A stretch of DNA of 64,000 nt from Oscillospiraceae bacterium (GCA_015068235.1 SVKY01000002.1:1-64000), one strand, 5' to 3'; counted from the first letter of the stretch, positions 4,762 through 25,465 are shown. The notes: generated by a model not told the origin, from the sequence alone. Translations and numbers: made by a program.

Positions 4762-5641
4762 GGAATTTGGTTCCTCATGGGTGCGGTTCAGCGAATACGA
4801 ATGGAGATCAACTGCAGACGGCACAATGTTCCTAAAGCCTACTGAAACCGCCCAGCCCAGCATTTATAATCCCATGGACAACTATGAGCAGATCGTCCTG
4901 GATGCCATCACAATCGGAAGGATGGGTGCACAGAAAAAATCTGACTATAAGATTCAAAAAGCGATTCGGAAGTTTGCTGTAAATTATGGTCTGTTGGGCC
5001 TAATGGCAGCTCTACCGACCACCCCCAATTTCATGGATTATAAGGCCGTATATCTTCCCAAAAATCATTTCATCCGGGAAGAAGCCATGTCTACCGAAGA
5101 TTATTTGAATTTGTTCTTCCCTTTTGAAAAACCGGATGTAGTAAAACACGGTACAAACTCCATGTGGAGTGTACATGACGATCGCACTATGATGGCTCTT
5201 GCCATGACTATGGTGGATCAGCCCCTGGCGGTAAACATGAGCTTTCAGCGAGAATATTCCGAACGATACGACTGGCTGAAAGAGCAATTTATCGACATAG
5301 CCTTTACCTACCTAACCTCCGTCCTCTACTATGCAGATTACGACCGTCTTCCTCCGGAGCAGCGCCAGATGCTGCAACAAGGCATAGCCGCCTTCGGTGG
5401 CATTGCGCCTACATACCGCATCGCGCTGCGAGAAAAGCCTACAATCGTTTGGGATTTCCATTCACTGATCCTGATCATCCAAATCATGTTTAGCTTCATG
5501 CTGACAGACGATGAGACTCCCATTACGTATTGCAAAAATTGCCTTACCCCCTTCGTCCCCCAAAAGCCGGGCGAAATCTTCTGCTCTCCCAAGTGTGAGG
5601 AAATGTACAAGTCCAAAAAGAATAATACAAATGATAAATAA
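4745..5641 (+). CDS. DUF6076-like protein with C-terminal zinc ribbon
   Basis: TYCKNCLTPFVPQKPGEIFCSPKCEEMYKSKK (CxxC..CxxxC) at C-terminus; overlaps preceding gene. Confidence 0.45.
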   Translation: MKTLFKEFGSSWVRFSEYEWRSTADGTMFLKPTETAQPSIYNPMDNYEQIVLDAITIGRMGAQKKSDYKIQKAIRKFAVNYGLLGLMAALPTTPNFMDYKAVYLPKNHFIREEAMSTEDYLNLFFPFEKPDVVKHGTNSMWSVHDDRTMMALAMTMVDQPLAVNMSFQREYSERYDWLKEQFIDIAFTYLTSVLYYADYDRLPPEQRQMLQQGIAAFGGIAPTYRIALREKPTIVWDFHSLILIIQIMFSFMLTDDETPITYCKNCLTPFVPQKPGEIFCSPKCEEMYKSKKNNTNDK

Positions 5642-5785
5642 AAAAGTCCCACAATTCTGTATTGATAAGGCAATGTATATCGTTAGCTATTGAAAGGTAA
5701 ACTACGATTACTACGGCTTTTGTTTTCAAAAACATTTAAGCGAGTTTAACAAACGGAACAAAATGTGAAGTTTTGCAAATTCATA

Positions 5786-5814
5786 TTGACATTTTCTGAT
5801 ATAAATGATATTAT
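5786..5814 (+). promoter_or_regulatory. Predicted sigma-A promoter of the AAA/TOPRIM-like operon
   Basis: TTGACA (5786-5791) - 17 nt - TATTAT (5809-5814). Confidence 0.6.
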
Positions 5815-5847
5815 TATGCTGAGGAAAACCACAAGGAGGAACAGGAC

Positions 5848-7272
5848 ATGATGGATACAGTTGTTCGTTTGGAAAGTCTATCCATTGAGAATTTCAAGAA
5901 TGTCAAGAAGGGGCAGTTAAGTTTTACGAATAACAGAAAACCCTACAGAACCAGCATTATGGGTCTTTATGGTCAGAACGGTTCCGGCAAGACCGCTTTG
6001 ATCGATGCAATGGAACTCTTGCATTTAACCTTGACCGGGCAACCTATTCCTGCTAAGTTTGCTGACTACATTCATGTTGAAGCGGACTATGCAATTCTTT
6101 GCTATCAGTTTTCTGTTACACACAAAGATGAACAATACCAGGCTTTCTACGAATTCAAGCTGTGTGCTGAGAAGATGGAAGCTCAGCAGAACATGACGAT
6201 TGGAGAAAGCGAAGAAAACCGTTATAAAGTTGTAATCAAGGATGAAATCCTGAGCTATTCCTATGAAGGTCCGGAAGCCAAGCTTCGCAAGAGTCCTCTG
6301 ATAGACACATCTTCTCAGAGGGTTTTTGCTCCGGTTGGGAAATATTCCTGTCTGGTTGGCAAAGATAAAAAAGCATCCATGGATCTCATGGTCGCCAAGA
6401 AGGTTGCAGAGGGTGCATCCAGATCTTTTGTTTTCTCCAGAGAACTATTGACTGCTATCAAAAATCATCAACAAAGTAAGAGTGATCCGGAATACCGGAG
6501 ACATGTGAACTTGATCAATAGTCTTGTTCACTACGGAAACTTTGAGTTGTTCGTCATTAATACTACTAATTCCGGAATTATCAGCATGAATATGCTCCCT
6601 ATCGCCTTCCAATACGAGGACGAGAATCAAGGTGCCGCCGGCAATATCCTGCTCCCCTTAGAGGACGCTGCACCTATTCCCGAAGAGGCACTCTCCATGG
6701 CAGAACATGTCATCAATAACATGAACATTGTTCTTTCCCAAATCGTCCCGGGACTTACCATCAGCATTGAAAACCTGGGTGAGGTGATTTTCGCAAATGG
6801 GAAAAAGGGCATTAAGATTCAGCTTATGTCCCTGAAAAACGAAAAGCCTATCCCCTTAAAGTATGAATCCGAAGGAATCAAGAAGATTGTTTCCGTATTG
6901 CAGTTGCTGATCGTTGTGTATAATCGTGCATCCATCACTGTAGCTATTGACGAGCTGGACGCCGGAGTGTTTGAATATTTGCTCGGCGAGTTGCTTCGTA
7001 TCATCTCCGAAAAGGGAAAAGGCCAACTGTTGTTTACTTCCCATAATCTTCGCCCGCTGGAAACTCTGGACAGAGGCTTTATTGCATTTACTACTACCAA
7101 TCCTTCTAACAGATATATTCGCATGACCAATATCAAGGATAATAACAATTTGAGAGACTTCTACTTCAGAGACATTATCTTGGGGGAACAGAGCGAGGAG
7201 GTTTACGATCCCACCAATAATGCCGAAATTGCTCTTGCATTCCGAGAGGCGGGTGAATTCAGTGGCTCGTAA
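5848..7272 (+). CDS. AAA15/OLD-like SMC-type ATPase
   Basis: Walker A GLYGQNGSGKTALIDAM; Walker B ITVAIDELDAGVFEYLLGELLRI; LLFTSHNL; N-terminal IENFKNVKKGQL. Confidence 0.7.
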   Translation: MMDTVVRLESLSIENFKNVKKGQLSFTNNRKPYRTSIMGLYGQNGSGKTALIDAMELLHLTLTGQPIPAKFADYIHVEADYAILCYQFSVTHKDEQYQAFYEFKLCAEKMEAQQNMTIGESEENRYKVVIKDEILSYSYEGPEAKLRKSPLIDTSSQRVFAPVGKYSCLVGKDKKASMDLMVAKKVAEGASRSFVFSRELLTAIKNHQQSKSDPEYRRHVNLINSLVHYGNFELFVINTTNSGIISMNMLPIAFQYEDENQGAAGNILLPLEDAAPIPEEALSMAEHVINNMNIVLSQIVPGLTISIENLGEVIFANGKKGIKIQLMSLKNEKPIPLKYESEGIKKIVSVLQLLIVVYNRASITVAIDELDAGVFEYLLGELLRIISEKGKGQLLFTSHNLRPLETLDRGFIAFTTTNPSNRYIRMTNIKDNNNLRDFYFRDIILGEQSEEVYDPTNNAEIALAFREAGEFSGS

Positions 7273-7990
7273 AAAAGTCGTATTTGTTATCGTGGAGGGA
7301 CCCTCCGACGATACTGCCCTTGGTGTTATATTAAACAAGGTTTTCGACAAAAACAAAGTCCACATAGAAATCATGCATGGGGATATTACCTCTGACACAA
7401 CCATTGCGCCGGAAGCAATCGCCGGAGCAATCGGTGATGTGGTAAAAAATTACGCATCTTCCATGCATTTTACCCAAAATAATTTCCAACAGGTTATCCA
7501 TATTGTTGATACAGATGGGGCATATATCCCGGACACAGTCGTGAAAGAGAACCCCACTGCAGAAAAACCTGTATATTCCCTGACCGAAATACAGACCGCA
7601 AAACCTGAGCAATTGATACTCAGGAATCAACATAAGCAACTCAAGCTTGACCGTATTAAGGGCTTGAAAAAAGTATGGTCGTCTATTCCTTATCAAGCCT
7701 ATTACATGTCCTGTAATCTTGACCATGTACTTTACGGAAAGCTGAACAGTTCCGATGAAGAAAAAGAAAATGATGCCTATGCCTTTGCACGGAAATATAA
7801 GGACGATATAGACGGTTTTCTGTCCTACATTTCCGATTCCGACTTTTCAAGAATGGAAGGCTACAAGCAATCTTGGGACTTCATTAAAACCGACCTTCAC
7901 TCCCTTGAACGCCACACCAACCTCGGCCTCTGCTTCGCAGCAATCAGAGAAGAACGCAAACAGAAAATGTCTGAAGATCAACCAAGTTAA
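7262..7990 (+). CDS. TOPRIM-like / RloB-like partner protein
   Basis: N-terminal KKVVFVIVEGPSDDTALGVIL TOPRIM-like glutamate motif, VIHIVDTDGA acidic motif; overlaps the ATPase gene (GTG start at 7253 or 7262). Confidence 0.6.
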   Translation: MARKKVVFVIVEGPSDDTALGVILNKVFDKNKVHIEIMHGDITSDTTIAPEAIAGAIGDVVKNYASSMHFTQNNFQQVIHIVDTDGAYIPDTVVKENPTAEKPVYSLTEIQTAKPEQLILRNQHKQLKLDRIKGLKKVWSSIPYQAYYMSCNLDHVLYGKLNSSDEEKENDAYAFARKYKDDIDGFLSYISDSDFSRMEGYKQSWDFIKTDLHSLERHTNLGLCFAAIREERKQKMSEDQPS

Positions 7991-7996
7991 CACAGG

Positions 7997-8031
7997 CGAG
8001 CAGCAATCTTTTACATGAAGATTGTTGCTCG
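7997..8031 (+). terminator. Intrinsic terminator after AAA/TOPRIM-like operon
   Basis: cgagcagcaatctt-ttacatg-aagattgttgctcg followed by ttttgctt. Confidence 0.6.
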
Positions 8032-8161
8032 TTTTGCTTATCCGACCCACTTAGAGGTTAAAGACAGTACCATCTTTACCACAACGGGGAGCATATTTCA
8101 ATAACTTGATTTTTTCTTGTATTTTCATTCTAAATCTCAAGTGCAACCCACAAAACACCAA

Positions 8162-8176
8162 ATTGAGAAACTCAAT
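8162..8176. promoter_or_regulatory. Candidate operator: ATTGAG-AAA-CTCAAT inverted repeat
   Basis: Perfect 6-3-6 inverted repeat just upstream of the -35 of the BREX-like operon promoter. Confidence 0.4.
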
Positions 8177-8182
8177 ATCAAT

Positions 8183-8211
8183 TTGACTTTTTATACATTT
8201 GATGCTATACT
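8183..8211 (+). promoter_or_regulatory. Predicted sigma-A promoter of the HTH/BREX-like operon
   Basis: TTGACT (8183-8188) - 17 nt - TATACT (8206-8211). Confidence 0.6.
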
Positions 8212-8254
8212 ATATGTTGTATTTTGCCGAATTTTTGATTCTGAGGTGATCGAA

Positions 8255-8500
8255 ATGGCTATGAACTATAATAGACTTTGGAAAATGTTAATTGACCGAA
8301 ACATGATGAAAAAAGACTTAATACAAAAGGCTGGAATTTCCACGAATGCAATGGCCAAGATGGGAAAAGGTGGCGATGTTTCAACGCAGGTGCTCAGAAA
8401 AATTTGCACAGTCCTAGATTGTGGGATAGAAGATATTGTTGAAGTTGTTGCCGATTCTGCGGATAAATGCGAATTCCTTGATGTGCAGGAGCAACGGTAG
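8255..8500 (+). CDS. XRE/Cro-family HTH regulator
   Basis: MAMNYNRLWKMLIDRNMMKKDLIQKAGISTNAMAKMGKGGDVSTQVLRKICTVLDCGIEDIVEV; typical small Cro/C1-type regulator. Confidence 0.75.
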   Translation: MAMNYNRLWKMLIDRNMMKKDLIQKAGISTNAMAKMGKGGDVSTQVLRKICTVLDCGIEDIVEVVADSADKCEFLDVQEQR

Positions 8501-8543
8501 TATATAAATCTCTATACTGCAAAAATAACTTGAGGTGAGTAAC

Positions 8544-10712
8544 ATGGCTATTCGGAAATTTTGGGATAAATATGAAGCTGCTCTTCTGCTTAAGTACGCG
8601 ATTTTAGTTGAAGAGGGCACTGTTTCTCTAACGAGTGCTGTGTCGGAAGTATCAGAGATATTACGCAATCGGGCGGTATCTAGGGGCCTGCTGATTGATG
8701 ATTGTTTTCGTAATGTGAACGGCATCTCAATGCAAATGTCAGCACTCAGAAACTGCTATCAAGGAGGCACGAAGGGCTTAGCTGCCTCAAAGCTCATTAG
8801 AGAGATTGTTTCGCTATACAAGACTGATAAAATTGCTTTTGAGCGTATTCTTCAGGAGGAATCAGTAGAAATAGAAAATTTAAAAGGAACAGCGAATCGA
8901 ATGGTAGACGAGAACAAACTTGTAAATTTCGCAGAAACGCGGAGCTATGCCCATACAAAACCAACAAACTGCACATACAAAGGTACACCAATAGTGTGTG
9001 TTAGCTGGAATGCGCTTTACATTAATCTCGTTAGGGCTTTTTATAAAGATTATGCATTATCATTCCCCGTTGGAAAGCAACTCTCTTCAAGTGAGAGAAT
9101 TGACATTGGCGACTCTAAGGGAATGACCTACCCAAAAGAAATTGCTGACGGAGTTTTTCTTGAATGCAATGTTAGTGCAACAGGCATTATTAATAAGGTC
9201 CGCGCCCTGATGAACGTCTGTAATATATCGCCAGATGATGTTGTGGTACATTATTGCAGATCTGGTCAGAATGCAGATGCAGCAGATAAGAAAAATGCGA
9301 CCCCTAAAGAAAAGGTGCCAGTATGGTCACCTAAGTACACGAAGGAATTATCTGATTTACTACAGGCACACTACCACTATGGTTTCCGGATTGGCTCCCC
9401 AATTGAGATGATGCGCCTGAGAAACTATGCAGATGCGGAAAGTATTGTTGTTCCGGAATCTGATGAAGAACTCGATCGTGAGATTAAAATGGCTGGCGTA
9501 CTTATCGACGGGATGCTGTTCGCATTGAGTGATTCGCTATTGGATGATGTAGGGGCTTTTATTGATAGCATTTTTTCCAGTGGTGCTTGCGTTGTGTTTA
9601 CCGAAGTGTTGATGGAAAAGCACCTTGATTGGTTTGAAGAAAGGCTAATCATATCCGAAGAAATGCTAAAGGAAATCCTGCGTAAGAGTCGACCCGGATA
9701 TTATTTTGGTCATAATATTATTACTGCGGGCAATAAGCTTTCTGAACATGATGCGATTGTTCATGATATTCTTCGGATTGCTGGCAATAGTAGCGTTATT
9801 CTCTTTGATGAGATGGTGCAACAACTGCAGTATATTCCATCGGATAAAATTGCTTGGAGTTTATCCGCAAGCCAAGAGTTTGTTTGGATTAGCGAGGGTA
9901 AATACTTTGTTATGCAGCATTTTCTTGTGGGAAACGAAGACGAGACTGCCATTTTGGACTTCGTTGCAAGAGAGTGCGAAAGAAATGGTTTTGCATCTAT
10001 AACAGATTTACCCTTTGGAAGCATCCCTGATGATAATTACGAACTGTCTGTTACTGCGTTGTATTCGGCGGTATTCACCCGAATCTTGAAAGGTCGATAT
10101 TATCTTCACGGGAAGATTATCACAAAGGAATCAGACGGTGTAGATATTACGGCTCTCTTGAAAGCATTCTGTGTTGGCAGAGATGAATGTTCCGTCTCCG
10201 AGGTTCTTGCTAGAGCGACAGAATTGACGGGTGCTATCAATAAGCAATATTCTATGGAAGCCTTGTATGGAACGATGGTTCGTGTCGATGTAGACCGCTT
10301 TGTATCGGAGAAATATATTTCTTTTGATGTAGAAAGGATCGACCACCTTTTATCTGAGGTTCTTGGAGACAGGTTTACACCGATAAAATCCATTACTACA
10401 TTTGCTTTGTTCCCCGCCTGCGGAATCAGCTGGAACCACTATGTTCTGGAAAGCTTCTGCTATCGATTCAGCAACAAATATCGACTTGTTGTTATGAACT
10501 ATAATGACAAGAATGCAGGTATTATCAAGTTTAAGGACTTACCGCTCGGTTATACAGATATGCTATGTGAGGCTGCGGCAGTTTCAAATATTGAACTTAC
10601 CCAGGATTGTGTTGGGCAATACTTCTTTGACTGCGGTTTGACCGCAAAGAGAAAATACTCCAACCTTTCGGAAATTGTAGAAAGAGCGAGAAACATTAGA
10701 GAGGAGCGCTGA
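8544..10712 (+). CDS. Protein of unknown function, first large gene of the BREX-like operon
   Basis: 725-aa ORF (716 aa from the preferred ATG at 8544; GTG at 8535 also possible). N-terminal FWDKYEAALLLKYAILVEEG..AVSEVSEILRNRAVSRGLLIDDCFRNVNGISMQMSALRNCYQGG module, then a second module (WNALYINLVRAFYKDY..GVFLECNVSATGIINKVRALMNVCNI); no motif assigned in the C-terminal half. Confidence 0.7.
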   Translation: MAIRKFWDKYEAALLLKYAILVEEGTVSLTSAVSEVSEILRNRAVSRGLLIDDCFRNVNGISMQMSALRNCYQGGTKGLAASKLIREIVSLYKTDKIAFERILQEESVEIENLKGTANRMVDENKLVNFAETRSYAHTKPTNCTYKGTPIVCVSWNALYINLVRAFYKDYALSFPVGKQLSSSERIDIGDSKGMTYPKEIADGVFLECNVSATGIINKVRALMNVCNISPDDVVVHYCRSGQNADAADKKNATPKEKVPVWSPKYTKELSDLLQAHYHYGFRIGSPIEMMRLRNYADAESIVVPESDEELDREIKMAGVLIDGMLFALSDSLLDDVGAFIDSIFSSGACVVFTEVLMEKHLDWFEERLIISEEMLKEILRKSRPGYYFGHNIITAGNKLSEHDAIVHDILRIAGNSSVILFDEMVQQLQYIPSDKIAWSLSASQEFVWISEGKYFVMQHFLVGNEDETAILDFVARECERNGFASITDLPFGSIPDDNYELSVTALYSAVFTRILKGRYYLHGKIITKESDGVDITALLKAFCVGRDECSVSEVLARATELTGAINKQYSMEALYGTMVRVDVDRFVSEKYISFDVERIDHLLSEVLGDRFTPIKSITTFALFPACGISWNHYVLESFCYRFSNKYRLVVMNYNDKNAGIIKFKDLPLGYTDMLCEAAAVSNIELTQDCVGQYFFDCGLTAKRKYSNLSEIVERARNIREER

Positions 10713-10717
10713 TTCCG

Positions 10718-13054
10718 TTGTATTCATATACATATGATTCCCTGTCAGGCGGAATAGTGTTAAATTCCACCCCAACCGTTTTTTCCAAGGAACCTAGACC
10801 CGTGTGGGCGCATGAGATGGATCTTCTTGGCTTCAACAACTACTGGAATTATGACAATACGTGTGAAGAACCTTATATGTGGGCCGAGTCTAACATGTAT
10901 TGGTATAGGGGTGTGCTGATTGCCAAGACAAAAGGTGGCGATCTGTACACGGAACCTGAATTGCAGCCGGTAAGACTGGAAGATGGCAGCATTCCTTTTT
11001 CAAAAATCGATGGTGATTCTTTGCACCCGGTTGATCTTTCAGTTATGTGTGAGAAGAACAAAGACCTCCTTGCAATTATCGAAGATACGACAGTAAAAAA
11101 GATTGTAAAAGAATATGAAAAGTTCAAATCAAAGCTGGACATATTCCATGTTGCTTTTTCTGGTGGTAAGGATAGTGCGGTTCTTCTGGATTTGGTAAAG
11201 AAAGCATTGCCTATTGGAAGTTTCGTTGTTATCTTCGGAGATACCGGAATGGAGTTCCCTGACACATATTCCGCAGTGGAACAGACAAAAAAACAGTGTG
11301 AGGAAGATGGGACTCCATTTTACATTTCGAATTCGCACTTTACCCCCGACGAATCCTGGCAGTTATTTGGTCCTCCTGCTCGAGTCTTGCGCTGGTGCTG
11401 TAGTGTTCATAAGAGTACGCCACAGACTTTGAAGATGAGAGAAATTACCGGAAAGGATAATTACATTGGCATGGATTTCGTGGGGGTAAGAGCCCATGAG
11501 AGCCTTACTCGTAGTAAATACGAATACGAGAATTTTGGTAAAAAACAAAAAGGTCAGTATAGCTACAATCCGATTCTCGAATGGACATCTGCTGAGATTT
11601 GGCTCTACATGTTCATGAATGATGTGCCAATAAATGATGCCTACAAAAAAGGCAATTCTAGAGCTGGCTGCTTATTTTGCCCGATGAGTGGTGGCTCCAG
11701 TGATTATTTTAGACGCTGTGCATATCCTTCAGAAGTTGATAGATATGTTGAACGTATTAGGACTTCCTATTCTGCAACAGATGAAAAGGCTGCAGAATCT
11801 TATGTACGCAATGGCGGTTGGAATGCACGCAAAAATGGCCGAGATCTTGTTGACAATCCATTTAGGTGCATTGAATCAACATCCGGCGAACACATCACCA
11901 TTACAGTTGTCAACCCATCCACAGATTGGAAAGAGTGGATCAAAACGATTGGCGATTTCTATGAAACAAGTGATGGATATAGTGTTAGTTGGAAGGGGAC
12001 AACGTATCGGTTTTCCGTAATTGAAAAAGAAAATGGATATGTTGTATATCTGCCACAAGCGATATCCAAAGAGAACCCCCAATTTGTAAAACTATTCCGG
12101 CAGGTCTTTAGAAAAGCATCCTACTGTGCTGGATGTAGGGTATGCGAAACAAACTGTAGGAATGGCAGTATTAAGTTTATTGATGGTAAGCTTCAGATTA
12201 CAAATTGCATTCATTGTCATCAGTGTCATCTTATAGACAGCGGTTGCTTACTGTTCCATTCTTTGAGGCATCCGCAAGGAGGAGGAAAATCCATGAAGAG
12301 CTTAAACTCATTTGCAGATCACGCTCCGAAACGTGATTGGCTGGTTTCGTTCTTTGACCTCAAGGAGGATTTCTTTACTGAACACTCTTTGGGGCCAATG
12401 ATGTACGATATGTTCCGACGCTTTTTGCGGGATGCTGGTCTTAATGAAAAGAACCACTTTACACCCTTTGCTGAGTTGGTGGATATGATCGGCTGGGAGA
12501 GCGAAACGGCACTTGGACTGATGATGGTTAACCTGGCAATGGATAATCCCCAGATTGCATGGTATGTCAAGTCTCTTGATGTCGGTTTCTATTATGAACG
12601 GTCTCAGGTAGAATATATGCTGGTCGCCTTAGATGTAAAACCGAAAGATGCAAAATCTATCGTAAAGTCCTATAAGCGCATCATGAGTACACCTTTTGGT
12701 ACGGCATTAAACTTTGGATATGTTACAGATGAGGACGACATTGTTCGGTTGAAGTGGACAGTGAGCGATAATAGGGTGTTTTTGTACGCCTTGTATCGTT
12801 TTGCGGAAAAATGCAACCTCAGCAAGGAGTTTAATGTAACATATTTGTTTGAGGAAGATACAGATAGAGATGCTGTAAGCCCCGTTCGCTTGATGGGCTT
12901 TTATGATGAAGAAGAATTAAAATCGGTTCTTCTGGGGCTTGCAGCTCGCTACCCTGACTATATCAATGCAACTTACACCAATGATCTGAAAACCATCACT
13001 TTAAGGGACAAGTCCGCCGCGGATGTTCTTAAGCTGTTTGAGGAGGAACTCTGA
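10718..13054 (+). CDS. brxP: BrxP-like PAPS reductase/DndC-like ATP pyrophosphatase with ferredoxin domain (type 4 BREX)
   Basis: PP-loop HVAFSGGKDSAVLLDLV; RWCCSVHKSTPQ; AGCLFCPMSGGSSDYF; CAGCRVCETNCRNGSI...CIHCHQC 4Fe-4S motifs; TTG start. Confidence 0.8.
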   Translation: MYSYTYDSLSGGIVLNSTPTVFSKEPRPVWAHEMDLLGFNNYWNYDNTCEEPYMWAESNMYWYRGVLIAKTKGGDLYTEPELQPVRLEDGSIPFSKIDGDSLHPVDLSVMCEKNKDLLAIIEDTTVKKIVKEYEKFKSKLDIFHVAFSGGKDSAVLLDLVKKALPIGSFVVIFGDTGMEFPDTYSAVEQTKKQCEEDGTPFYISNSHFTPDESWQLFGPPARVLRWCCSVHKSTPQTLKMREITGKDNYIGMDFVGVRAHESLTRSKYEYENFGKKQKGQYSYNPILEWTSAEIWLYMFMNDVPINDAYKKGNSRAGCLFCPMSGGSSDYFRRCAYPSEVDRYVERIRTSYSATDEKAAESYVRNGGWNARKNGRDLVDNPFRCIESTSGEHITITVVNPSTDWKEWIKTIGDFYETSDGYSVSWKGTTYRFSVIEKENGYVVYLPQAISKENPQFVKLFRQVFRKASYCAGCRVCETNCRNGSIKFIDGKLQITNCIHCHQCHLIDSGCLLFHSLRHPQGGGKSMKSLNSFADHAPKRDWLVSFFDLKEDFFTEHSLGPMMYDMFRRFLRDAGLNEKNHFTPFAELVDMIGWESETALGLMMVNLAMDNPQIAWYVKSLDVGFYYERSQVEYMLVALDVKPKDAKSIVKSYKRIMSTPFGTALNFGYVTDEDDIVRLKWTVSDNRVFLYALYRFAEKCNLSKEFNVTYLFEEDTDRDAVSPVRLMGFYDEEELKSVLLGLAARYPDYINATYTNDLKTITLRDKSAADVLKLFEEEL

Positions 13055-13055
13055 T

Positions 13056-16000
13056 ATGGCTACGAGCACGAAATATTGCGAATACTTTGACGTTAATGAG
13101 ACATATTTCCCGTGTATTGATGAATCGGCCATTAATGCAGGAGTACAGTGGGAGACTACTTACCCGCATGAAACATTTATTGAAATGCTGAGCAGTGTCG
13201 ACAAGATGCTTGGTGGCACGACAAATCGGTCTCTGTGGATTCATGGTGCATATGGAACCGGTAAGTCTCAGTGTGCGTATGCATTGAAGCGGATCCTAGA
13301 GGTGCCGGAGTCCGAGGTTCGCGCCTATTGGGATATGTACGAACCGCTCAAAAAGAATGGCGCGCTTCTTGAGAAACTGCTTGGACATAAAGAACATGGT
13401 GTCATCACCGCGTATCGCTATGCTTCTGGAAGTATCACCTCGCCCCAACAGCTCTTTCTCGCAGTGCAAGAAAGCGTTCGTGCCGCATTGGATAAGGTCC
13501 CTGGTTCCTATAAAGGCGAGAACACTCTGAAGGAAAGTGTTATCTCTTGGCTGGAGGATCCTGCCCATAATAGCTTTGTCAACACGCTCCTTGAGAAGCC
13601 TGAATGGATGGCTGAATTTTCACAGTCTTCTGCTGATGAAATTATAAACACGCTGAAGAAAAGCACGGAGATTTCCGGCCTGATGGATAGCATATTCAAG
13701 ATGGCTGCGAAGGAGGGAATTACTGCGCTGTCCCTTACGTCAGATTCCCTTTGCAAATGGATTATTGATGTTGTCACAAAAAATAACACGAAAATTGTGC
13801 TGATTTGGGATGAGTTTAGCGGTTTCTTCCGTCAGAATAAGAACTCATTGGATGAGTTCCAGAAGATTGTCTCAATTTGCGAAGAGGCTCATTTTTACTT
13901 TATCATCGTTACGCACCCGATTTCTTCCATTGCAGGAGCTTCGGTCTCCAAGGATGACCCAATGAGTGTCGTTCAGCAGCGTTTTAATAAGGTTGAAATC
14001 AGCTTGCCTCCGAATATTGCTTTTGACCTTATCGGACATGCGTTCTCTGTTATTCCGGCAGCAAGGAAACAGTGGGATATGATGACTGGGGATCTGAATG
14101 CCAGAGTCTCCTCGTCCAGAAATGCTGTTATGAAGGCAGCCACAGTAACAAATGCATCGGTTATGCAGCGTATGTTGCCGATCCATCCTACGGCCGCTCT
14201 AGTTCTGAAGAATATTGCTTCCGCGTTCCAGTCAAATCAGCGGAGTATGTTTGATTTTATTAAGACTCCAAAGGATTTGGATGTTCAAGCTTTTCAATGG
14301 TTTATTCAAAATAGAAGCCCGATGTCCGATCGGCCCCTTCTTACGGTTGATATGTTGTGGGACTTTTTCTATGAGAAAGGCAAGGACTATTTGTCTTCCG
14401 ATATCAAATTGATCCTTGATACATTCCCTCAGCAGACAAACCTTGTTGAAAAAGAAAAGGTTGTTCTGAAAGCTATCCTGATTATGCAAGCGGTTGATCA
14501 GCGACTGGGCGGTTCTATTCCTCTGCTCAAACCTACAGACCAAAACTTAAGCTATGCATTTGAGGGCGACGCACCTGAGTATGAAAATGGCTGTAAAAAC
14601 ATAGCAAAGGCACTCGTCACCAAAGGAATCCTGATTCCCGCACCGATCGCCGACGGTAAAAAGGCCTATGCTGTGGCCGTTCTTGCTGGAGACGGTGCAA
14701 AAATTGACGGATATAAGGCCGAAGTTCGCAAAAATGGAACAATCAATAAATTGGTCGAAGAAGGCGAACAGCTGGCAACCGCTTTGAGCCTTACCCCTGC
14801 GCTGAAACTGCGGTATGCTTTAAGCGTTGATTCTGGCGCACTTCCCATTGTTACCGTTGCGAATTTCACAAAAACCATGGATGCTCTGAAGGCAAAGGAT
14901 GTAAATTGGCATTTTTATGCCGTACTTGCTCTTGCGAAAAACGACGAGGAAGCACAGAAGTTCCGTGGCATGATTAAGCAAGCGGTGGCAAACGAAGAAT
15001 ACAAAAACATTGCTATTATTGATGCTCTTTCTACTCCGTTGGGCTTAGAAGAGTTCGAACGATATGTGGAATTTTCTGCCATGGCAATGTATTACCAAGG
15101 CAATCAAAATCAGCAGGCCAAAGATAATGCACGAAAGGCAAAAGATGTTCTTAACCGTACGTGGAGAGAACGCATTCACGATGGACATTTTGTCGTGTGG
15201 ACATATGCAAACCAGGATGGAGAAAAGGCTACTGGCGCAACTGCGGTTCACACGATCATGCAAACTATAGTGCGTAGCCGGTTTGTTTATGCGTTTGACT
15301 TCACTAAGGGTCTCTCTGAATCACAGCTAAAACTTACAACAGCAAAACCTATCGCTAGATATGGCATGGGCAATATTGAAATCACGGGTTTGATTAAGGG
15401 ATGTGAGAAAACCGTTCTCGGAAAAGTATGGAATCGTGATAATTATTGGACGGATTCTGATTTGGAAAAAGAGCCGATTTCTGTAATCAAGCGCGCTGTC
15501 ATGAAAATGATTGATGACTCTTTCAAGGCAAATGGAAGAATTGCGATTGATGAGATCTGTGATTTTCTTGAGACTTCGTATGGTTTTTCTCCCTGTAATC
15601 TATCAGTATTTATTACCGGTTTCCTACTGCGGGAGTATAATAGTGATCCTTATCGTTGCCAGGATTCCGAAGGTCATAGAGAGTCGATGACACCAGATAA
15701 GCTCGCAGAAATGATTGCGAACTACATGACCAAAAAATCCAAGACAACGTACATTGTGAGCCTAACAGAAGATGAGAAAGCATTTTATGAAATGACAGAA
15801 GAGGCTTGGGGAATCATGCCAAATACTTGCTCATCTCCGACACAGGCAGGTACCTTGATCCAGGCGAAAATGCGAGAATTTGCATATCCTGTTTGGTGCC
15901 TTGAGGAAGTAGATACACTTGGCGTATTCGACATTGTCAAAAAATACATTCTGCTTGTTCAGAGCGATGGACAGGCCGCACACAGTATCGCCAATGATAT

Positions 16001-17219
16001 CGGAAAAATCGCCCGTCAAAGACCGTCTTGCACCAAGAATCTCACGAGTCTTCTCACAGCGGAGAATTGCCAAAAGGGTATTGAGTTGTTCCTTGAGCAC
16101 TTTGAAAATGGCAGATTGGTATCTTTGGCGGCTGAAATTGGTGCTATGGAGCAAATGCTCGGTGATATCAAGAAGCTGTTCAGTGTAAAACATTCTGCAC
16201 AGTGGGTTTCTACAACTGGTGAGGATGAGATTCGTAAGCTCATTGTGGAATATGAGGTCATCAAGATCACCAATTTGCTCTTAAATGTATCGAATCATAC
16301 AAAGGATGCTACTTTTAAATCCTGGAGGGAGACACTGAAGTTTATCGGCCTATCTTGCGAGGCTATAAGGACTAAGGTGCCTGCCCTCGACAAGGTCTTT
16401 GAGCTGCTTCTAAAACTCGCAAATTATGATGAGATTCTCCCCGAAAATATGCTTCAGCTATTTACTGAACTTTCGACTCATCAGTTAGAACTGAACGACA
16501 TTCTTAGCGATACTCTTGGCGCGTTCATAACACTGTATGAGCCGTATCTTGGTGGATTCTCACGCGCAGAATGCGAGGAAATCAAGAACTCTATCAAAGT
16601 CGATATGTTCATGCTGTCTGCAACTAAGAGCAATGCAGAAGTAAAAAAGGCGGCTGAGGATTATCGAAAGAATCAAATTAAAGTACAGCTTTTCAAGCTC
16701 TGGAGCGATAGAACAGGCGGAACCAAAAATCCGAGGCAGTGGTCTGAAAAATACAAAACTCCGATTCTGTATTGTTTGGAACCTGTAATCTATGGCGAGG
16801 CCAAAAGGGTATTTGCGGTGCTGAATAGCAATGCCCAAACAGAAGCAGAGATTAAGCTTGCTCTTGAATTTCTGCAAAGTGCAACATTCTTTGACACAAT
16901 TGAAGATCCTGCACATCGTGACCGATGCTTTGCGAAACACATTATCGGTGACTACATAAAGCTTCTGCCGGATATCGGTGCGGTTAGAGCAGCTCTGGAA
17001 GTGCTTGCTGTTGATCCTTATGACTGGGGCGATGATCCTACCGTTAAGGCGAAAGTACGGAGCATGGCCAGTGCGGAGTATAATGCCGGCGGCAGTGATG
17101 AAGCTAAAAAGGTCATCGATGACATGGAAGACGTTGAGGAGCTGAAGTCTTGGCTGAAAAAGCTCGTTGCTGGGGACATGGAATTAGGGGTTAAAATTAT
17201 TAGCAACGGAAGGGGGTAA
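13056..17219 (+). CDS. brxC: BrxC/PglY-like large P-loop ATPase
   Basis: Walker A IHGAYGTGKSQCAYAL; Walker B KIVLIWDEFSGFF; length and position between brxP and pglZ. Confidence 0.8.
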   Translation: MATSTKYCEYFDVNETYFPCIDESAINAGVQWETTYPHETFIEMLSSVDKMLGGTTNRSLWIHGAYGTGKSQCAYALKRILEVPESEVRAYWDMYEPLKKNGALLEKLLGHKEHGVITAYRYASGSITSPQQLFLAVQESVRAALDKVPGSYKGENTLKESVISWLEDPAHNSFVNTLLEKPEWMAEFSQSSADEIINTLKKSTEISGLMDSIFKMAAKEGITALSLTSDSLCKWIIDVVTKNNTKIVLIWDEFSGFFRQNKNSLDEFQKIVSICEEAHFYFIIVTHPISSIAGASVSKDDPMSVVQQRFNKVEISLPPNIAFDLIGHAFSVIPAARKQWDMMTGDLNARVSSSRNAVMKAATVTNASVMQRMLPIHPTAALVLKNIASAFQSNQRSMFDFIKTPKDLDVQAFQWFIQNRSPMSDRPLLTVDMLWDFFYEKGKDYLSSDIKLILDTFPQQTNLVEKEKVVLKAILIMQAVDQRLGGSIPLLKPTDQNLSYAFEGDAPEYENGCKNIAKALVTKGILIPAPIADGKKAYAVAVLAGDGAKIDGYKAEVRKNGTINKLVEEGEQLATALSLTPALKLRYALSVDSGALPIVTVANFTKTMDALKAKDVNWHFYAVLALAKNDEEAQKFRGMIKQAVANEEYKNIAIIDALSTPLGLEEFERYVEFSAMAMYYQGNQNQQAKDNARKAKDVLNRTWRERIHDGHFVVWTYANQDGEKATGATAVHTIMQTIVRSRFVYAFDFTKGLSESQLKLTTAKPIARYGMGNIEITGLIKGCEKTVLGKVWNRDNYWTDSDLEKEPISVIKRAVMKMIDDSFKANGRIAIDEICDFLETSYGFSPCNLSVFITGFLLREYNSDPYRCQDSEGHRESMTPDKLAEMIANYMTKKSKTTYIVSLTEDEKAFYEMTEEAWGIMPNTCSSPTQAGTLIQAKMREFAYPVWCLEEVDTLGVFDIVKKYILLVQSDGQAAHSIANDIGKIARQRPSCTKNLTSLLTAENCQKGIELFLEHFENGRLVSLAAEIGAMEQMLGDIKKLFSVKHSAQWVSTTGEDEIRKLIVEYEVIKITNLLLNVSNHTKDATFKSWRETLKFIGLSCEAIRTKVPALDKVFELLLKLANYDEILPENMLQLFTELSTHQLELNDILSDTLGAFITLYEPYLGGFSRAECEEIKNSIKVDMFMLSATKSNAEVKKAAEDYRKNQIKVQLFKLWSDRTGGTKNPRQWSEKYKTPILYCLEPVIYGEAKRVFAVLNSNAQTEAEIKLALEFLQSATFFDTIEDPAHRDRCFAKHIIGDYIKLLPDIGAVRAALEVLAVDPYDWGDDPTVKAKVRSMASAEYNAGGSDEAKKVIDDMEDVEELKSWLKKLVAGDMELGVKIISNGRG

Positions 17220-19498
17220 TGCTTATGCTGTGCAGTGCAGTTCTCAACTATATAGCCACCGCAAGGGGATTACCGTTTTTTTATGTTGTTGGTGATGATA
17301 AATATTCTGCAACGCTGGACGAATTGTCTCAACTTGGGTTAATCATTGATCGCGCAAGCGATTTCTGCCCCAAGGAGGATAAACTCCCCAATGTTGATGA
17401 TATTATCGATCATTTCAGGACCCTTGATGTTGACTATAAGCAGAATAAGCATGTTCTGGTAGGACTTGGAGAGTTTTTGGCGCTAAAAGGAGCTGCCGTA
17501 GCAGAAAAAGAACTTCGTCGACTTAAAAACGCAACCCTTGGTTCTGCCCGTGTCGTTGTATTGCTCCGTTGTGTTATAACACAGGTATTTGACCTTGCAA
17601 ATGAGGATCGACGCCTTGCACAACAAGGTCGTATATACGTTGATGATAGTCCTCTTTCGGGTATAGGCCTAACCTGTATAAAATATGCCGTAGATGATTC
17701 GGTTGTGAGCGGTATTAAGGGATTCTTGCGTTTGTGTGAAGATGGCGCCACGGGAACAATTGGTGTCAATACTGCCATGCAGTTCCCCGCGGCAACGCTT
17801 CCTGTTAGTAGTATTAACTCCGCCTATGCTGCAATCCGAAAAGAGCTTCCAAATTTCGTGACAGATGAGGTCCTTGGCACAGACCAGCAATGGGATCAGT
17901 TGTTTAAGGAATTGGCAAAAGCAAAATGGTCTCTTGTTTCTGTGTTCGGCAAATACGGTTTCGCTTTAGAATTCAATGATGATCTGTATCGTAACTGTGC
18001 AGGTTATGAGTTTAGGAACTGGTTATTCTTCTTGTTCTTGAAGCTTAATGTAGAAGGTATTGGTACAGGATATCTGCGCTTTGTAGTCCAAATGACCGAC
18101 AACTATGAGTATCTTAAAGATAATATCCTGACCGCAATTATCCAGGTTCCAAGAAATGACAGCCGTTTCTATGCGTTCTATAATGAACGCAAAAAACTGA
18201 TTCGTTATTTTCCAGAATCTGAGATTGCTATATTCGTCCATCGGAACAGCATAAACTATGCTGAAAGTTTGTATCGCTATACTGACAACACTCGCATGGA
18301 ACGGGAAGAAGTTATTCGCTGGCTTTCTACATACGGATACTGCCCTGAAATTGAGTATGTTTATCCGGCACTGTATGATTACCTTAGGGATTACACGTTT
18401 GATTGCGGAAAGCTATCTGAAGAGTTGACTTCCTACTTTAGAGAGTACAAGCTTCAGAAACTTACAAATACCATTCACCCTGAATTTCAGGAACGAGTAA
18501 ATGCATATGCATTAAGCCTTCCGTATGTGCATCTGGAAACACGCGATAGTGCTATTCTTCGTATCCCGGACAAGAAGTCTGCCTTCCTGTACTGGATTGA
18601 TGCATTGGGTGTTGAATATCTTTCGTACATAACTGCGCTGGTGAAGAAAAAAGGACTGTCGATGCATATTGATGTCGCATATGCCGAACTACCGACGATC
18701 ACTTCCATCAACCGTGGATTTTACGAAAAATGGTCCGGTCCGCTAAAAGAAAAGTTATCAGATCTTGATGATATCAAACACAAGGAAAAGGGCGGTTATG
18801 TTTTTGACGAAAAACACGAGACCCCCATTCATCTTGCGGCAGAGCTGGAAATTATTGAACGTGCTGTTGACAGAGCGGCAACTGAGCTGGCGATGCATAG
18901 GTGTAAATCGTTTATTATAGCGAGTGATCATGGTGCGTCTAGATTGGCGGTAATTCGAAGGCAGGAAGAAAAGTACGAGACGGACACCAAAGGAGAGCAC
19001 TCCGGTCGCTGCTGTAAGGAGTTTCCTGATGCTGATCTACCTTTTGCTGTAAAAGAGAATGGGTATTATGTTCTTGGAGATTATGGCCGCTTCAAAAAGA
19101 GTAGAGCAGCAAATGTTGAGGTTCATGGTGGTGCCTCACTGGAAGAAGTCTTGGTGCCGGTCATTACACTGACTCTCCGCAAACAGACATCGCTGGTTGT
19201 TCAGTTGGCTGATAAAGATGTTAGAGCTGATCGAAGAACAGGAACAACCTTTGTGATATTTATTTCTGAGGTTGAGCATCCGTACAACATTAGTGTTATT
19301 ATTGATGGAGAACGGCTTAAGGCGAAGCACTTAGATGCAACACACTATGAGGTAAATATGCCTTCGCAAAAACGCTCAAAAAAAGATGTCCGCGCAGATG
19401 TATATGATGGTGATGACCTTGTGGGCAACCTCACATTTGAGATAAAGGGCAAATTTGGTGGTGCTGACAAGAAGGAATTCGATGATCTTACCTTCTAA
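17219..19498 (+). CDS. pglZ: PglZ-domain protein (alkaline phosphatase superfamily)
   Basis: FLYWIDALGVEYLSYI; FIIASDHGASRLAV; VEVHGGASLEEVLVPVITL; start overlaps brxC stop (TAATG). Confidence 0.88.
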   Translation: MLMLCSAVLNYIATARGLPFFYVVGDDKYSATLDELSQLGLIIDRASDFCPKEDKLPNVDDIIDHFRTLDVDYKQNKHVLVGLGEFLALKGAAVAEKELRRLKNATLGSARVVVLLRCVITQVFDLANEDRRLAQQGRIYVDDSPLSGIGLTCIKYAVDDSVVSGIKGFLRLCEDGATGTIGVNTAMQFPAATLPVSSINSAYAAIRKELPNFVTDEVLGTDQQWDQLFKELAKAKWSLVSVFGKYGFALEFNDDLYRNCAGYEFRNWLFFLFLKLNVEGIGTGYLRFVVQMTDNYEYLKDNILTAIIQVPRNDSRFYAFYNERKKLIRYFPESEIAIFVHRNSINYAESLYRYTDNTRMEREEVIRWLSTYGYCPEIEYVYPALYDYLRDYTFDCGKLSEELTSYFREYKLQKLTNTIHPEFQERVNAYALSLPYVHLETRDSAILRIPDKKSAFLYWIDALGVEYLSYITALVKKKGLSMHIDVAYAELPTITSINRGFYEKWSGPLKEKLSDLDDIKHKEKGGYVFDEKHETPIHLAAELEIIERAVDRAATELAMHRCKSFIIASDHGASRLAVIRRQEEKYETDTKGEHSGRCCKEFPDADLPFAVKENGYYVLGDYGRFKKSRAANVEVHGGASLEEVLVPVITLTLRKQTSLVVQLADKDVRADRRTGTTFVIFISEVEHPYNISVIIDGERLKAKHLDATHYEVNMPSQKRSKKDVRADVYDGDDLVGNLTFEIKGKFGGADKKEFDDLTF

Positions 19499-19509
19499 GG
19501 AGAATTTTA

Positions 19510-21000
19510 ATGGACTATACAGAAAAGCTCAGAGACTGTTTCGATGAAATGGTTGTATATAAGGATTTGAAGAAAACCAACTTCTTTTCAGCCCTTAGTC
19601 TGCCTGCGTTTATGAGAGACTGGCTCCTGAAAAAATTCGAAGATGATGATGGGAATTTTGACAAAGATGATATGGCTCGCTTTGTGAAAAAGTTTATTCC
19701 CCGCAAAGATGATTGGACATCAATCAAAAATCGAGTCATTGTAGAGGGTGAAATTGTAAAATTCTTGGCAAAAGTGTCAATCAATATTGATATTAGAACG
19801 GGAGAGGTCTCGTTTGCACTACCTGACTTCGGCTTGGGCTATAAGGAAACTATTATTGAAAGCCATGTTTGGGACGAGTGTAAGGATGATCTTGTTCGAG
19901 GCAGTGATACTTGGGGAATGGTTGAACTTGGTTATCGTTCCCCGGAGGATTTTGACATTGAGTTTGAATATGAGCAGAAACGTTCTCGTGCAAAATCTTC
20001 TCGTGAAGGGAAAATCAAACTGGTTTCGTTTAAGAACTTTTGCCCATACCAGATCGACTTGGATGAGTACAAAGATGCTCGTCGTGATTTTGAGATTGGC
20101 GAGTGGATCGATGTGATTTTGGGTGCAGTGGACTATAACGCAGGTGGGTATTCTTCTGAAGAGGAAAAGTTGACGATGATTACCCGACTACTCCCGTTTG
20201 TTGAGAAACGCCTTAACCTTATTGAGCTTGCTCCAAAGGGAACTGGTAAGTCTTACCTCTTCGGTAATGTTAGCCGTTATGGTTGGCTTTCCAGTGGCGG
20301 CGTGATGAGTAGAGCAAAGATGTTCTATGACCAGACGAAGCGAAGAGAGGGCTTGATTGCAGGTAGCGACTTTGTGACCCTGGATGAAGTTCAAACGATT
20401 TCGTTCACTGATACTGATGAGATGCGAGCAGCACTGAAAGGCTATATGGAGCAAGGCAATTTCACAGTTGGTGACTACAAAGGTGTTGCAGATGCTGGCG
20501 TGATTCTGTGTGGCAACATCCGAAAAGAGATTATGGACGCCGACGGCTATGCTAACATGTTTACAGAGCTTCCGGTTGTCTTCCATGAGTCTGCACTTAT
20601 CGAACGTTTTCATGGATTCATTAAGGGCTGGAATATTCCCAGAATGAACGATGATCTTAAAATTGATGGCTGGGCTCTCAATTCGGAATACTTTTGCTCA
20701 ATCATTCATGAGTTACGCAGTGATATGACCTACAGAAGTTTTGTTGATGAACACGTCGTTGTACCGGAAGGTGCAGACACTCGTGACACGGAAGCAGTAA
20801 AGAGAATAACAACCGCTTATTTGAAGTTGCTATTCCCTCATGTCCAGAGTGCGGCAGATATCTCAGAGAGGGAATTTAGACGTTACTGCCTCGATCGAGC
20901 AAGGAGAATGAGAGACACTATTCGATACCAGCTCGGTTTGCTAGATGAAGAATATGCAGGAAAGGATTTGCCTGCCTTTGGTGTGCAAGGATTGGAATAA
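19510..21000 (+). CDS. brxL: BrxL-like AAA+ protein (short form, no Lon S16 domain seen)
   Basis: LIELAPKGTGKSYLFGNVSRYGWLSSGGVMSRAKMFYD; FVTLDEVQTISF; ends at 496 aa. Confidence 0.82.
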   Translation: MDYTEKLRDCFDEMVVYKDLKKTNFFSALSLPAFMRDWLLKKFEDDDGNFDKDDMARFVKKFIPRKDDWTSIKNRVIVEGEIVKFLAKVSINIDIRTGEVSFALPDFGLGYKETIIESHVWDECKDDLVRGSDTWGMVELGYRSPEDFDIEFEYEQKRSRAKSSREGKIKLVSFKNFCPYQIDLDEYKDARRDFEIGEWIDVILGAVDYNAGGYSSEEEKLTMITRLLPFVEKRLNLIELAPKGTGKSYLFGNVSRYGWLSSGGVMSRAKMFYDQTKRREGLIAGSDFVTLDEVQTISFTDTDEMRAALKGYMEQGNFTVGDYKGVADAGVILCGNIRKEIMDADGYANMFTELPVVFHESALIERFHGFIKGWNIPRMNDDLKIDGWALNSEYFCSIIHELRSDMTYRSFVDEHVVVPEGADTRDTEAVKRITTAYLKLLFPHVQSAADISEREFRRYCLDRARRMRDTIRYQLGLLDEEYAGKDLPAFGVQGLE

Positions 21001-21004
21001 TTGA

Positions 21005-21205
21005 ATGGGAAATAAGAGTTGTTATGTCTGCGGCAAGACTGTGCTTACTAAAGATGAAATTGGCCTTACAAAAAAACTGATTGACAAGAAAAGCTCGGTA
21101 TTCTTCTGTGTCTATTGTCTTGCTGAACAGTTGGAGGTAACAAAAGAAGAACTTCTTGCAAAGATAGAGGAATTCAAAGAAGAAGGTTGTACCCTCTTCA
21201 GGTAG
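21005..21205 (+). CDS. 66-aa double CxxC (zinc-ribbon-like) protein
   Basis: MGNKSCYVCGKTVLTKDEIGLTKKLIDKKSSVFFCVYCLAEQLEVTKEELLAKIEEFKEEGCTLFR; 4-nt gap from brxL, 13-nt gap to the desulfurase gene. Confidence 0.7.
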   Translation: MGNKSCYVCGKTVLTKDEIGLTKKLIDKKSSVFFCVYCLAEQLEVTKEELLAKIEEFKEEGCTLFR

Positions 21206-21218
21206 CGGAGGATTAACC

Positions 21219-22337
21219 ATGATCTATGCTGATAATGCGGCTACAACAAAACTGGATAAAGATGCGTTTGTGGCTATGATTCCTTGGCTTCAAGACGAAT
21301 TTGGAAACGCCTCGCAACCATACTCGTTTGCTCGAAAACCAAAGAAAGCAATAGCAGAAGCTCGAGCTTTGATTGCTAGTTGTATTGGGGCTGAGCCTGG
21401 TGAGATTTTCTTTACCTCTGGTGGCACTGAAAGCGATAACTGGGCAATTATGGGAAGTGCACTTGGCAATCTTGAGAAAAAAACTACCGTTACATCTATG
21501 ATTGAGCATCACGCAGTTCTTAGAACTTGCGAGGCTATTGAAAGATTGGGTTACCCAGTTGCGTATTTGGATGTTACCCAAGATGGTATTGTTACAGCAG
21601 AGGCTCTCGAAAGTATCATTACAAATCGGACGAGACTCGTTTCGGTTATGTATGCCAATAATGAAATAGGATCTATTCAGCCGATAAAAAAATTGGCTGA
21701 AATCGCCCATGTCCATGGAGCAATATTTCATACAGATGCAGTGCAAGCAATCGGTCATGTGCCAATTGATGTCAAGGAACTTGGAATAGATATGTTGTCG
21801 GCATCTGCACACAAGTTCAATGGTCCCAAAGGGATCGGATTTCTCTATATCAGGAAAGGTACATGTATCTCTCCATATGCGAATGGAGGAGCTCAAGAAA
21901 GCGGTTTAAGAGCTGGCACAGAAAATGTGGCAGGAATCGTCGGCATGGCTACTGCACTGAAGAAAAACTGTGATGAAATGAGTGATATTGCTGATCGTTT
22001 GCGAAAAATTGAAGATCATTTTTTAGAAATTCTTGATCAAGCACATATTACCTATATTCGCAATGGGGCTGATAATCGGATACCCGGAAATGTAAGTGTT
22101 TCAATTAAGGATGTGAGTGGAGAGATGCTTCTCCACCGCCTAGATTTGAAGGGAATCGCGATCTCTACTGGCTCTGCTTGTGACTCTGTGGACACACAAA
22201 TTTCTCACGTTATTCAGGCTATTAGAGTTCCGGCTGAATACGCAGAAGGAACAATACGAGTAAGTTTTGGGAGAGAAAATACAGAGACAGATGCCGACAC
22301 GATCGCGAAGGCACTCGTTCAGATTCTTACTAAGTGA
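21219..22337 (+). CDS. Cysteine desulfurase (DndA/IscS/NifS-like)
   Basis: YADNAATTKLD; FTSGGTESDNWAI; HTDAVQAIG; SASAHKFNGPKGIGFLYIR (PLP Lys); STGSACDS (catalytic Cys loop). Confidence 0.9.
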   Translation: MIYADNAATTKLDKDAFVAMIPWLQDEFGNASQPYSFARKPKKAIAEARALIASCIGAEPGEIFFTSGGTESDNWAIMGSALGNLEKKTTVTSMIEHHAVLRTCEAIERLGYPVAYLDVTQDGIVTAEALESIITNRTRLVSVMYANNEIGSIQPIKKLAEIAHVHGAIFHTDAVQAIGHVPIDVKELGIDMLSASAHKFNGPKGIGFLYIRKGTCISPYANGGAQESGLRAGTENVAGIVGMATALKKNCDEMSDIADRLRKIEDHFLEILDQAHITYIRNGADNRIPGNVSVSIKDVSGEMLLHRLDLKGIAISTGSACDSVDTQISHVIQAIRVPAEYAEGTIRVSFGRENTETDADTIAKALVQILTK

Positions 22338-22354
22338 TAAGTAACTGAAAAACA

Positions 22355-22380
22355 CCCTCTGTGGAATTGTCCGCAGAGGG
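22355..22380 (+). terminator. Hairpin after the BREX-like operon
   Basis: CCCTCTGTGG-aattgt-CCGCAGAGGG; no strong U-tract. Confidence 0.5.
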
Positions 22381-24307: not shown

Positions 24308-25465
24308 TTACAAAAATGTTATGCTCACACCAGTGTTGTCAATCCTCGGATCGATTTCTAGCAACTGATGCAAATGGCTATTTAGTTCCATGAAATATGA
24401 AATAATGCAATCGAGGTAATCTAAGGCATCCCGTATAGTCGATTCGGAATTCTTAATTAATTCTTCGTATTCATTTGAAGCTTCATCCATTGCTTTTTCG
24501 GCATAATAGTCGAGTTGTTCATCATAAGCTTCCATACCATAATCGTTTACGATTTTCCTACAAGCCTCATCCGAAACATCATACCTAGCCAGGTCTTTAA
24601 GATCTTCAAACAATGACGAGATTGTTTCATAAAAGCTCTCATAGGTACTTTTGTACTCTTCAAACAAGGTTTTCAAAGTTCCAACCGGTTCGGGCAATTC
24701 ATCAAGCTCCCAGTACTCATCTATTATGTCATCTACAACATTAAGTGCGTCTTCAAATTTTGAGAAAAAACGCATAAAGCCTTGTAAAAACTCTATAGTT
24801 GCTCCACTATCAGTGGTACGGTATATCCATTTCTCTTCAAAATTTGTATCATAATCTGCCCACGGCATAAAAGCAGCATCAAACAAATGTTGCCTTGCAA
24901 TTTTACAAGCAGGGATTAAACTGTCTAAATTGGCTATAGCTACGGCGAAGTTGTATTTGTAGTACGGGACAGATTTCTGTTGTACATCAGGAAACAATGA
25001 ATCCTTCAAGTATCCTATAAGTTCCTTGTCCGAGGAAATAGTGCCACATTCAAAATTTCCACTACTTTCATCAGAAAAATTGCTTGATCCCCAATAAACA
25101 ATATTTTCTGTCATAATAATTTTTGCGTGATTTTTAAATGTGAAATACGGATTTAATCTCATTCCGTAGTTTTTCGGATTTAATTGATTCAGATATAACT
25201 CAATTTTGTCCTTTGCGGCTATAGCATATTCTGGCTTATAATAACTCAAATATCTTTGAGGAATATTTGTTATTATTATTGCATTTGTCCCATTTGAGCA
25301 GGCGCTTTTCAAAGCCCCCAGCAAAGTGCTGTCTGCCTGCGGCGATATGTTAAAAGTCATTATTCCTATAAACTTTGCATTTTGAAAGTCATCTAATACG
25401 GGTTGGTATGTAAATTCACCTTTTCCAAATACGGCATGACCACCGTTGATTGAATACTCTTTCAT
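24308..25465 (-). CDS. PLD-superfamily-like protein with C-terminal helical region
   Basis: FKNHAKIIMTENIVYWGSSNFSDESSGNFECGTI (HxKxxxxE variant of HKD motif); preceding IIITNIPQ strand. Confidence 0.6.
   Translation of the reverse strand: MKEYSINGGHAVFGKGEFTYQPVLDDFQNAKFIGIMTFNISPQADSTLLGALKSACSNGTNAIIITNIPQRYLSYYKPEYAIAAKDKIELYLNQLNPKNYGMRLNPYFTFKNHAKIIMTENIVYWGSSNFSDESSGNFECGTISSDKELIGYLKDSLFPDVQQKSVPYYKYNFAVAIANLDSLIPACKIARQHLFDAAFMPWADYDTNFEEKWIYRTTDSGATIEFLQGFMRFFSKFEDALNVVDDIIDEYWELDELPEPVGTLKTLFEEYKSTYESFYETISSLFEDLKDLARYDVSDEACRKIVNDYGMEAYDEQLDYYAEKAMDEASNEYEELIKNSESTIRDALDYLDCIISYFMELNSHLHQLLEIDPRIDNTGVSITFL

Follow-up and report, generated by a model that had tools for sequence, protein, structure and literature searches.

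The window, a stretch of 64,000 nucleotides from an Oscillospiraceae bacterium, contains eight open reading frames on the + strand that are tightly packed between positions 8255 and 22337. Their order is an HTH gene, a gene here called X, brxP, brxC, pglZ, brxL, a gene for a 66-aa zinc-ribbon-like protein and a dndA/nifS-like cysteine desulfurase gene, and the listing of open reading frames places all eight where the initial annotation had put them. An extended −10 promoter-like site (TTGACT-17-TATACT with TG ahead of the −10; 10/12 matches with TG in a consensus scan) is found at 8183–8211 (+), 44 bases 5′ of the HTH gene, and a terminator-like stem-loop with an 11-pair stem and a T-rich tail follows at 22355–22380 (+), 18 bases 3′ of the desulfurase gene. 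Because these two sites flank the genes, the eight look co-transcribed as a single unit spanning 8183–22380. Since chance promoter matches are frequent in this region, the suggestive value of the 8183–8211 site lies in its position only, and by itself the match is no evidence of function. The first gene (8255–8500, +) encodes an 81-aa Cro/C1-type HTH regulator (HTH_26, 67.5 bits with a cut-off of 22), and HTH genes occupy the equivalent position in five related loci (L038, L066, L071, L076 and L110). X (8544–10712, +) had been described as a 725-aa unknown; it indeed lacks a family match, but its start is probably the ATG at 8544, which is preceded by the Shine–Dalgarno-like sequence AGGTGA and gives a protein of 722 aa. 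Similarly, brxC more likely starts at 13056 than at the open reading frame start at 13023, in agreement with the BrxC model.

The operon is one of several putative defence loci in the window. Just upstream of it, an AbiLi/AriA-like ATPase gene (5848–7272, +; AbiLi, 95 bits) is followed by a gene whose small product matches AriB weakly (about 7259–7990, +), and the two are a probable second defence pair. An AbiEii-like gene and its HTH partner, which has a weak AbiEi match, lie at 228–1603 (−) and are probably an abortive-infection/toxin–antitoxin pair. Downstream of the operon, a 389-aa protein with a weak match to DrmC (PLD-type) is encoded at 24308–25477 (−). A tRNA-Val gene (25762–25838, −) separates this defence-rich region (1–25.5 kb) from mostly housekeeping genes and could mark one boundary of an integrated island, whose left end would lie beyond the start of the contig.

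The families of the operon proteins were assigned with PADLOC, Pfam and NCBIfam profiles, and the scores of the core proteins are far beyond chance. BrxP (10718–13054, +) matches PDLC02510 with 809 bits over residues 1–775 and combines a PAPS-reductase/PP-loop domain (PF01507, 108 bits; SGGKDS motif) with a cysteine-rich 4Fe–4S-like region, and its cysteines include invariant ones in an alignment of the family (A1). A DUF4007/SspB-like component, frequently fused to BrxP, is a trait of type 4 BREX; PDLC02511, a distinct model of the BrxP C-terminus, matches residues 534–772 (33 bits), and Pfam DUF4007 is absent from the matches listed. The 1387-aa BrxC-type AAA+ ATPase (13056–17219, +) scores 1555 bits with PDLC02485 and carries the Walker A motif GAYGTGKS, which was identified by eye. 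PglZ (17219–19498, +) is of the BREX type 4 form with an N-terminal extension (NF033445 BREX_PglZ_4, 511 bits vs. a cut-off of 140; PDLC02554, 655 bits; DUF7862/7863/7864). The Pfam PglZ model PF08665 matches nothing in the genome; the BREX-4 PglZ model does match, pointing to a problem of the Pfam model. BrxL (19510–21000, +) is a 496-aa ATPase of the short form (PDLC02505, 738 bits; TIGR02688, 393 bits vs. a cut-off of 329; PF13337 and PF20442). With brxC, the BREX-4-form pglZ and brxL all present (1555, 511 and 393 bits), none of the four core proteins scoring below noise, the PAPS-reductase-type brxP replacing pglX and, as had been claimed, no methyltransferase among the operon genes, it is close to certain from the profile matches that the locus belongs to type 4 BREX, a type of phage-defence system, as the initial annotation had it.

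Passages of PMC11931770 and PMC12839542 present type 4 BREX as a phosphorothioation system that makes phosphorothioates, and the former, attributing the result to Yuan et al. 2024, counts brxPCZL as one of three phosphorothioate-making gene families. Sulfur-based marking by type 4 BREX is thus not new but published in principle. The initial annotation had proposed sulfur-based self-marking for this locus, and the features that led to it, a PAPS reductase in the place of the methyltransferase and an operon-borne desulfurase, hold, but the idea itself is already in the literature. By analogy with that published work, sulfur marking of its own DNA is likely in this strain.

The operon resembles known type 4 BREX loci in its four core proteins, their identical order and the lack of a methyltransferase, and its desulfurase and small zinc-finger gene are as reported for type 4 BREX in 2026 (PMC12839542). 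In contrast, the window has X upstream of brxP, a gene that the mostly Bacteroidota loci in the comparison lack. With regard to the Ssp system (SspABCD–SspE), BrxP resembles SspD, BrxC resembles SspC and the desulfurase resembles SspA, whereas the operon proteins include no separate SspB or SspE and do include PglZ and BrxL. With Dnd the operon shares a desulfurase near DndA and a PP-loop domain common to BrxP and DndC; however, it has no DndD or DndE, and the match of BrxP to DndC is weak (31 bits). Enzymes of the PP-loop type and desulfurases also serve in tRNA thiolation and iron–sulfur assembly, so the operon might carry out such other sulfur chemistry instead of DNA phosphorothioation. 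This reading is very unlikely in view of the complete BREX set with BrxC, PglZ and BrxL and of the phosphorothioate synthesis by brxPCZL described in the passages of PMC11931770 cited above.

The desulfurase (21219–22337, +) matches both DndA (PDLC02657, 437 bits) and TIGR03402 (448 bits). Three further desulfurase-like genes, the best 38% identical, are present in the same genome, so a sulfur donor need not come from the operon; that the locus provides one for itself, as had been claimed, is plausible. In a desulfurase tree, the BREX-linked copies stand apart from two of the other homologues in the genome, and the placement of the third (L240) is unsure because of long branches. The 66-aa protein (21005–21205, +) has the C-x2-C…C-x2-C pattern noted initially. 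About 20 relatives have the same small gene, flanked by brxL and cysD, and essentially all relatives preserve the C-terminus (E/D)GCxLF. That the cysteine in this C-terminus acts in sulfur transfer is only a suggestion.

The initial annotation had posited at least two components beyond the four core genes, and such extra genes are present in the operon. Their recurrence was followed in a neighbourhood survey in which a BrxP alignment was run against 85,462 species genomes, giving 80 loci that were viewed with flanks of at most 10 kb, and X, the small gene and the desulfurase were found to recur with brxP. The order X–brxP–brxC–pglZ–brxL–small gene–desulfurase is repeated in Bacillota, Mycoplasmatota and Fibrobacterota and nearly so in Spirochaetota, and X–brxP(–brxC) is found on shorter contigs of Desulfobacterota, Synergistota, Planctomycetes and Lentisphaerae. 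A desulfurase accompanies 25 of the 30 X-bearing loci with adequate downstream sequence, together with the strict zinc-ribbon motif in 19 of these 30, vs. a desulfurase in 4/22 and the strict motif in 0/22 of the X-less loci; the motif counts miss some true relatives of the 66-aa protein, the strict motif having been used because a profile had strayed onto the BrxP cysteine region.

Among the 73 loci with sufficient upstream sequence, the X core adjoins brxP in 40, and its presence directly upstream follows the BrxP score (32/32 above 950 bits, 6/22 at 850–950, 2/16 at 600–850 and 0/3 below). In the BrxP tree, the window's clade has 38 visible members, 37 of which carry X, the exception being L119, in which brxP is broken and duplicated; none of the 22 members of the sister, mostly Bacteroidota, clade carries it, and the groups neighbouring the window's clade have weaker X relatives. 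X and this BrxP clade are thus co-inherited. The X-less lineage has the four core genes and evidently works without X. One complete locus of the order HTH–X–brxP–brxC–pglZ–brxL–small gene–desulfurase (L038, MT835511.1, 4659–28543) is labelled "Bacteriophage sp."; it is the sole "phage" match for X, but the scaffold has era-, recO- and ppdK-like bacterial genes (by eye) and looks like a mislabelled piece of a bacterial chromosome, so it does not show X to be phage-borne. In another locus (L053, about 15455–16480), the end of pglZ and the start of brxL lie on the opposite strand, as after inversion of a segment; only an imperfect 26-nt inverted repeat is nearby, so phase variation and misassembly are both conceivable.

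X is apparently an undescribed component and looks to be the most informative part of the locus. At the thresholds used, Pfam, NCBIfam and PADLOC hold no model that matches it, PDB sequences gave nothing meaningful, and the type 4 BREX section of PMC12839542 does not mention it, although it might appear unlabelled in the figures or supplements. An AlphaFold model built from 34 sequences (mean pLDDT 89.2, pTM 0.53) shows a helical module at 1–120 (M1, delimited as residues 1–111), an alpha/beta module M3 at about 127–240 and, over residues 263–722, a chain of winged-helix units with pLDDT mostly above 90. Low Foldseek TM-scores are expected, since the global arrangement is uncertain, and the top matches are mainly tandem winged-helix proteins (UFL1/DDRGK1, the SelB C-terminal domain, ESCRT-II, RPC5 and STK19). 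The C-terminal core of about 460 aa, constant in the family and located upstream of brxP in the window, is therefore predicted by the model to be a tandem winged-helix array without an enzyme fold. No conserved set of catalytic residues was seen in the core across the family, which makes a nuclease unlikely, and kinship of the core with BrxP was rejected by profile comparison. Among the components compared, the core is the least conserved, with a mean pairwise identity of 25% vs. 31% for PglZ, 36% for BrxC, 46% for BrxP and 61% for BrxL. The N-terminal modules of the window protein gave no significant structural match, the best being the Sap1 DNA-binding domain (E 0.47).

Across the family, the length of the N-terminal part varies between 0 and 982 aa. 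Among 34 members, Phage_int_SAM (SAM-like integrase) modules were recognized in 7, HARE-HTH in 2 and an RNA-polymerase alpha-CTD with sigma70 region 4 in one, and unnamed modules recur in various combinations. Four loci from Synergistota, Spirochaetota and Desulfobacterota (L039, L040, L041 and L046) have BrxP proteins that are 77–83% identical and X cores that are 61–75% identical, and their N-terminal parts, of 280, 155, 114 and 120 aa, respectively, show no similarity (best blastp E 0.84). Unrelated front ends on closely related operons are the picture to be expected if a recognition or sensing part were swapped on a fixed frame. The N-terminal part is nearly missing in L045, L049, L053, L054 and L061 and is thus not essential everywhere. 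Separate versions of such parts were also noticed by eye: in L107, an M1-like module is part of a 222-aa protein that is encoded upstream of brxP and has an end resembling HNH, and in a Bacteroidota-type locus (L083) the end of a separate 262-aa open reading frame upstream of brxP resembles module 140–240 of the window protein. A further locus (L055, 4173–9965) has a tandem pair of X genes, encoding 1364 and 564 aa, upstream of brxP.

X relatives also occur outside BREX. An X-core match is present in 24 of 390 genomes of the class, the weaker ones mostly away from brxP, and some distant relatives are lone chromosomal genes with no obvious link to defence. In L233 (5945–18999), a 1334-aa X-like protein is encoded directly upstream of PbeA, PbeC, DndB, DndC and DndD, which is, by gene content, a second phosphorothioation context for an X-like protein. 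In L232 (about 4616–11597) and L236 (about 6862–12791), the X-like protein is found beside two small proteins, one of them DUF6339 in L236, and a gene that by eye is cytosine-methyltransferase-like, possibly a separate modification or defence system, and in L234 an X-like gene lies near PDC-M33A. Because its relatives occur in such varied contexts, the X core seems to be a DNA-binding frame of general use, permanently adopted by one BREX lineage. The same distant relatives, and the habit of defence islands to collect unrelated genes, would also suit a type 4 BREX of the usual kind, to which X is loosely linked as an accessory without a BREX role. This is quite unlikely, since X keeps to one position and accompanies nearly all members of one BrxP clade in different phyla.

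The reading we prefer, to which we give a probability of roughly 0.55, is that the operon is a phosphorothioate-BREX of an X-carrying lineage, in which the desulfurase feeds BrxP marking, PglZ and BrxL act on unmarked DNA and X reads DNA. The desulfurase would take sulfur from cysteine, possibly with the 66-aa zinc-ribbon protein helping to hand it on, and BrxP, on the BrxC ATPase scaffold, would insert it into the backbone of host DNA. PglZ, with its sensor-like N-terminal part, and BrxL would act against DNA without the mark, restriction roles that we infer. X would bind DNA: the constant winged-helix string at its C-terminus would dock onto the BREX complex, and the exchangeable modules at its N-terminus would pick the DNA that the complex engages, via sequence or modification state. 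From the modelled fold, X is proposed to be an exchangeable DNA-reading subunit that may decide which DNA the system reads, although it might just as well serve as a phage sensor, as a scaffold for assembly or as a regulator, and the description of the BrxP C-terminal part in the literature as SspB/BrxA-like and DNA-binding counts against X as the reader. More tentative is the narrower proposal that X is an exchangeable specificity subunit whose N-terminal modules, by being swapped, determine at which DNA sites the sulfur mark is placed and checked. It recalls HsdS of type I restriction–modification, which likewise joins a constant framework to exchangeable DNA-reading parts, but this is an analogy only and implies no kinship in sequence or fold.

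Swapping of N-terminal parts and fast evolution would also suit arms-race sensing, and all four core genes are present in the X-less lineage; X might therefore be a sensor of phage or DNA damage, its modules detecting invader features and its core signalling to PglZ and BrxL, with marking independent of X. The architecture of X would point best to DNA reading or to sensing; of the two, sensing is the less likely, since X is the neighbour of brxP, the gene for modification, and not of the effectors, and the recognizable modules (SAM-like integrase, HARE-HTH, alpha-CTD and sigma r4) are DNA-binding rather than ligand sensors. The alpha-CTD and sigma70_r4 modules, present in one family member and also in distant X-core relatives, raise a link to transcription, whereby X would regulate the operon or tie the system to RNA polymerase. 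PglW of type 2 BREX is described as having an RNA-polymerase alpha-CTD-like domain and three winged-helix modules (PMC12839542), and the PglW model gives a partial, local match with one X relative; X differs from PglW in lacking kinase, nuclease and NTPase domains. A transcriptional role is unlikely, because these modules are missing from most BREX-linked X proteins, the operon already has a separate HTH regulator and X is tied to brxP rather than to the promoter.

Type 4 BREX thus divides into two lineages. One bears X, spans Bacillota and several further phyla and in most cases has the zinc-ribbon/desulfurase pair; the other lacks X and consists mostly of Bacteroidota. The division bears on the transfer of results between the two. 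X is a concrete candidate for how type 4 BREX picks DNA sites and separates self from non-self, and the specificity idea is directly testable on closely related operons that differ naturally in the front end of X. If that idea is true, changing the front end of one protein would re-target the entire system.
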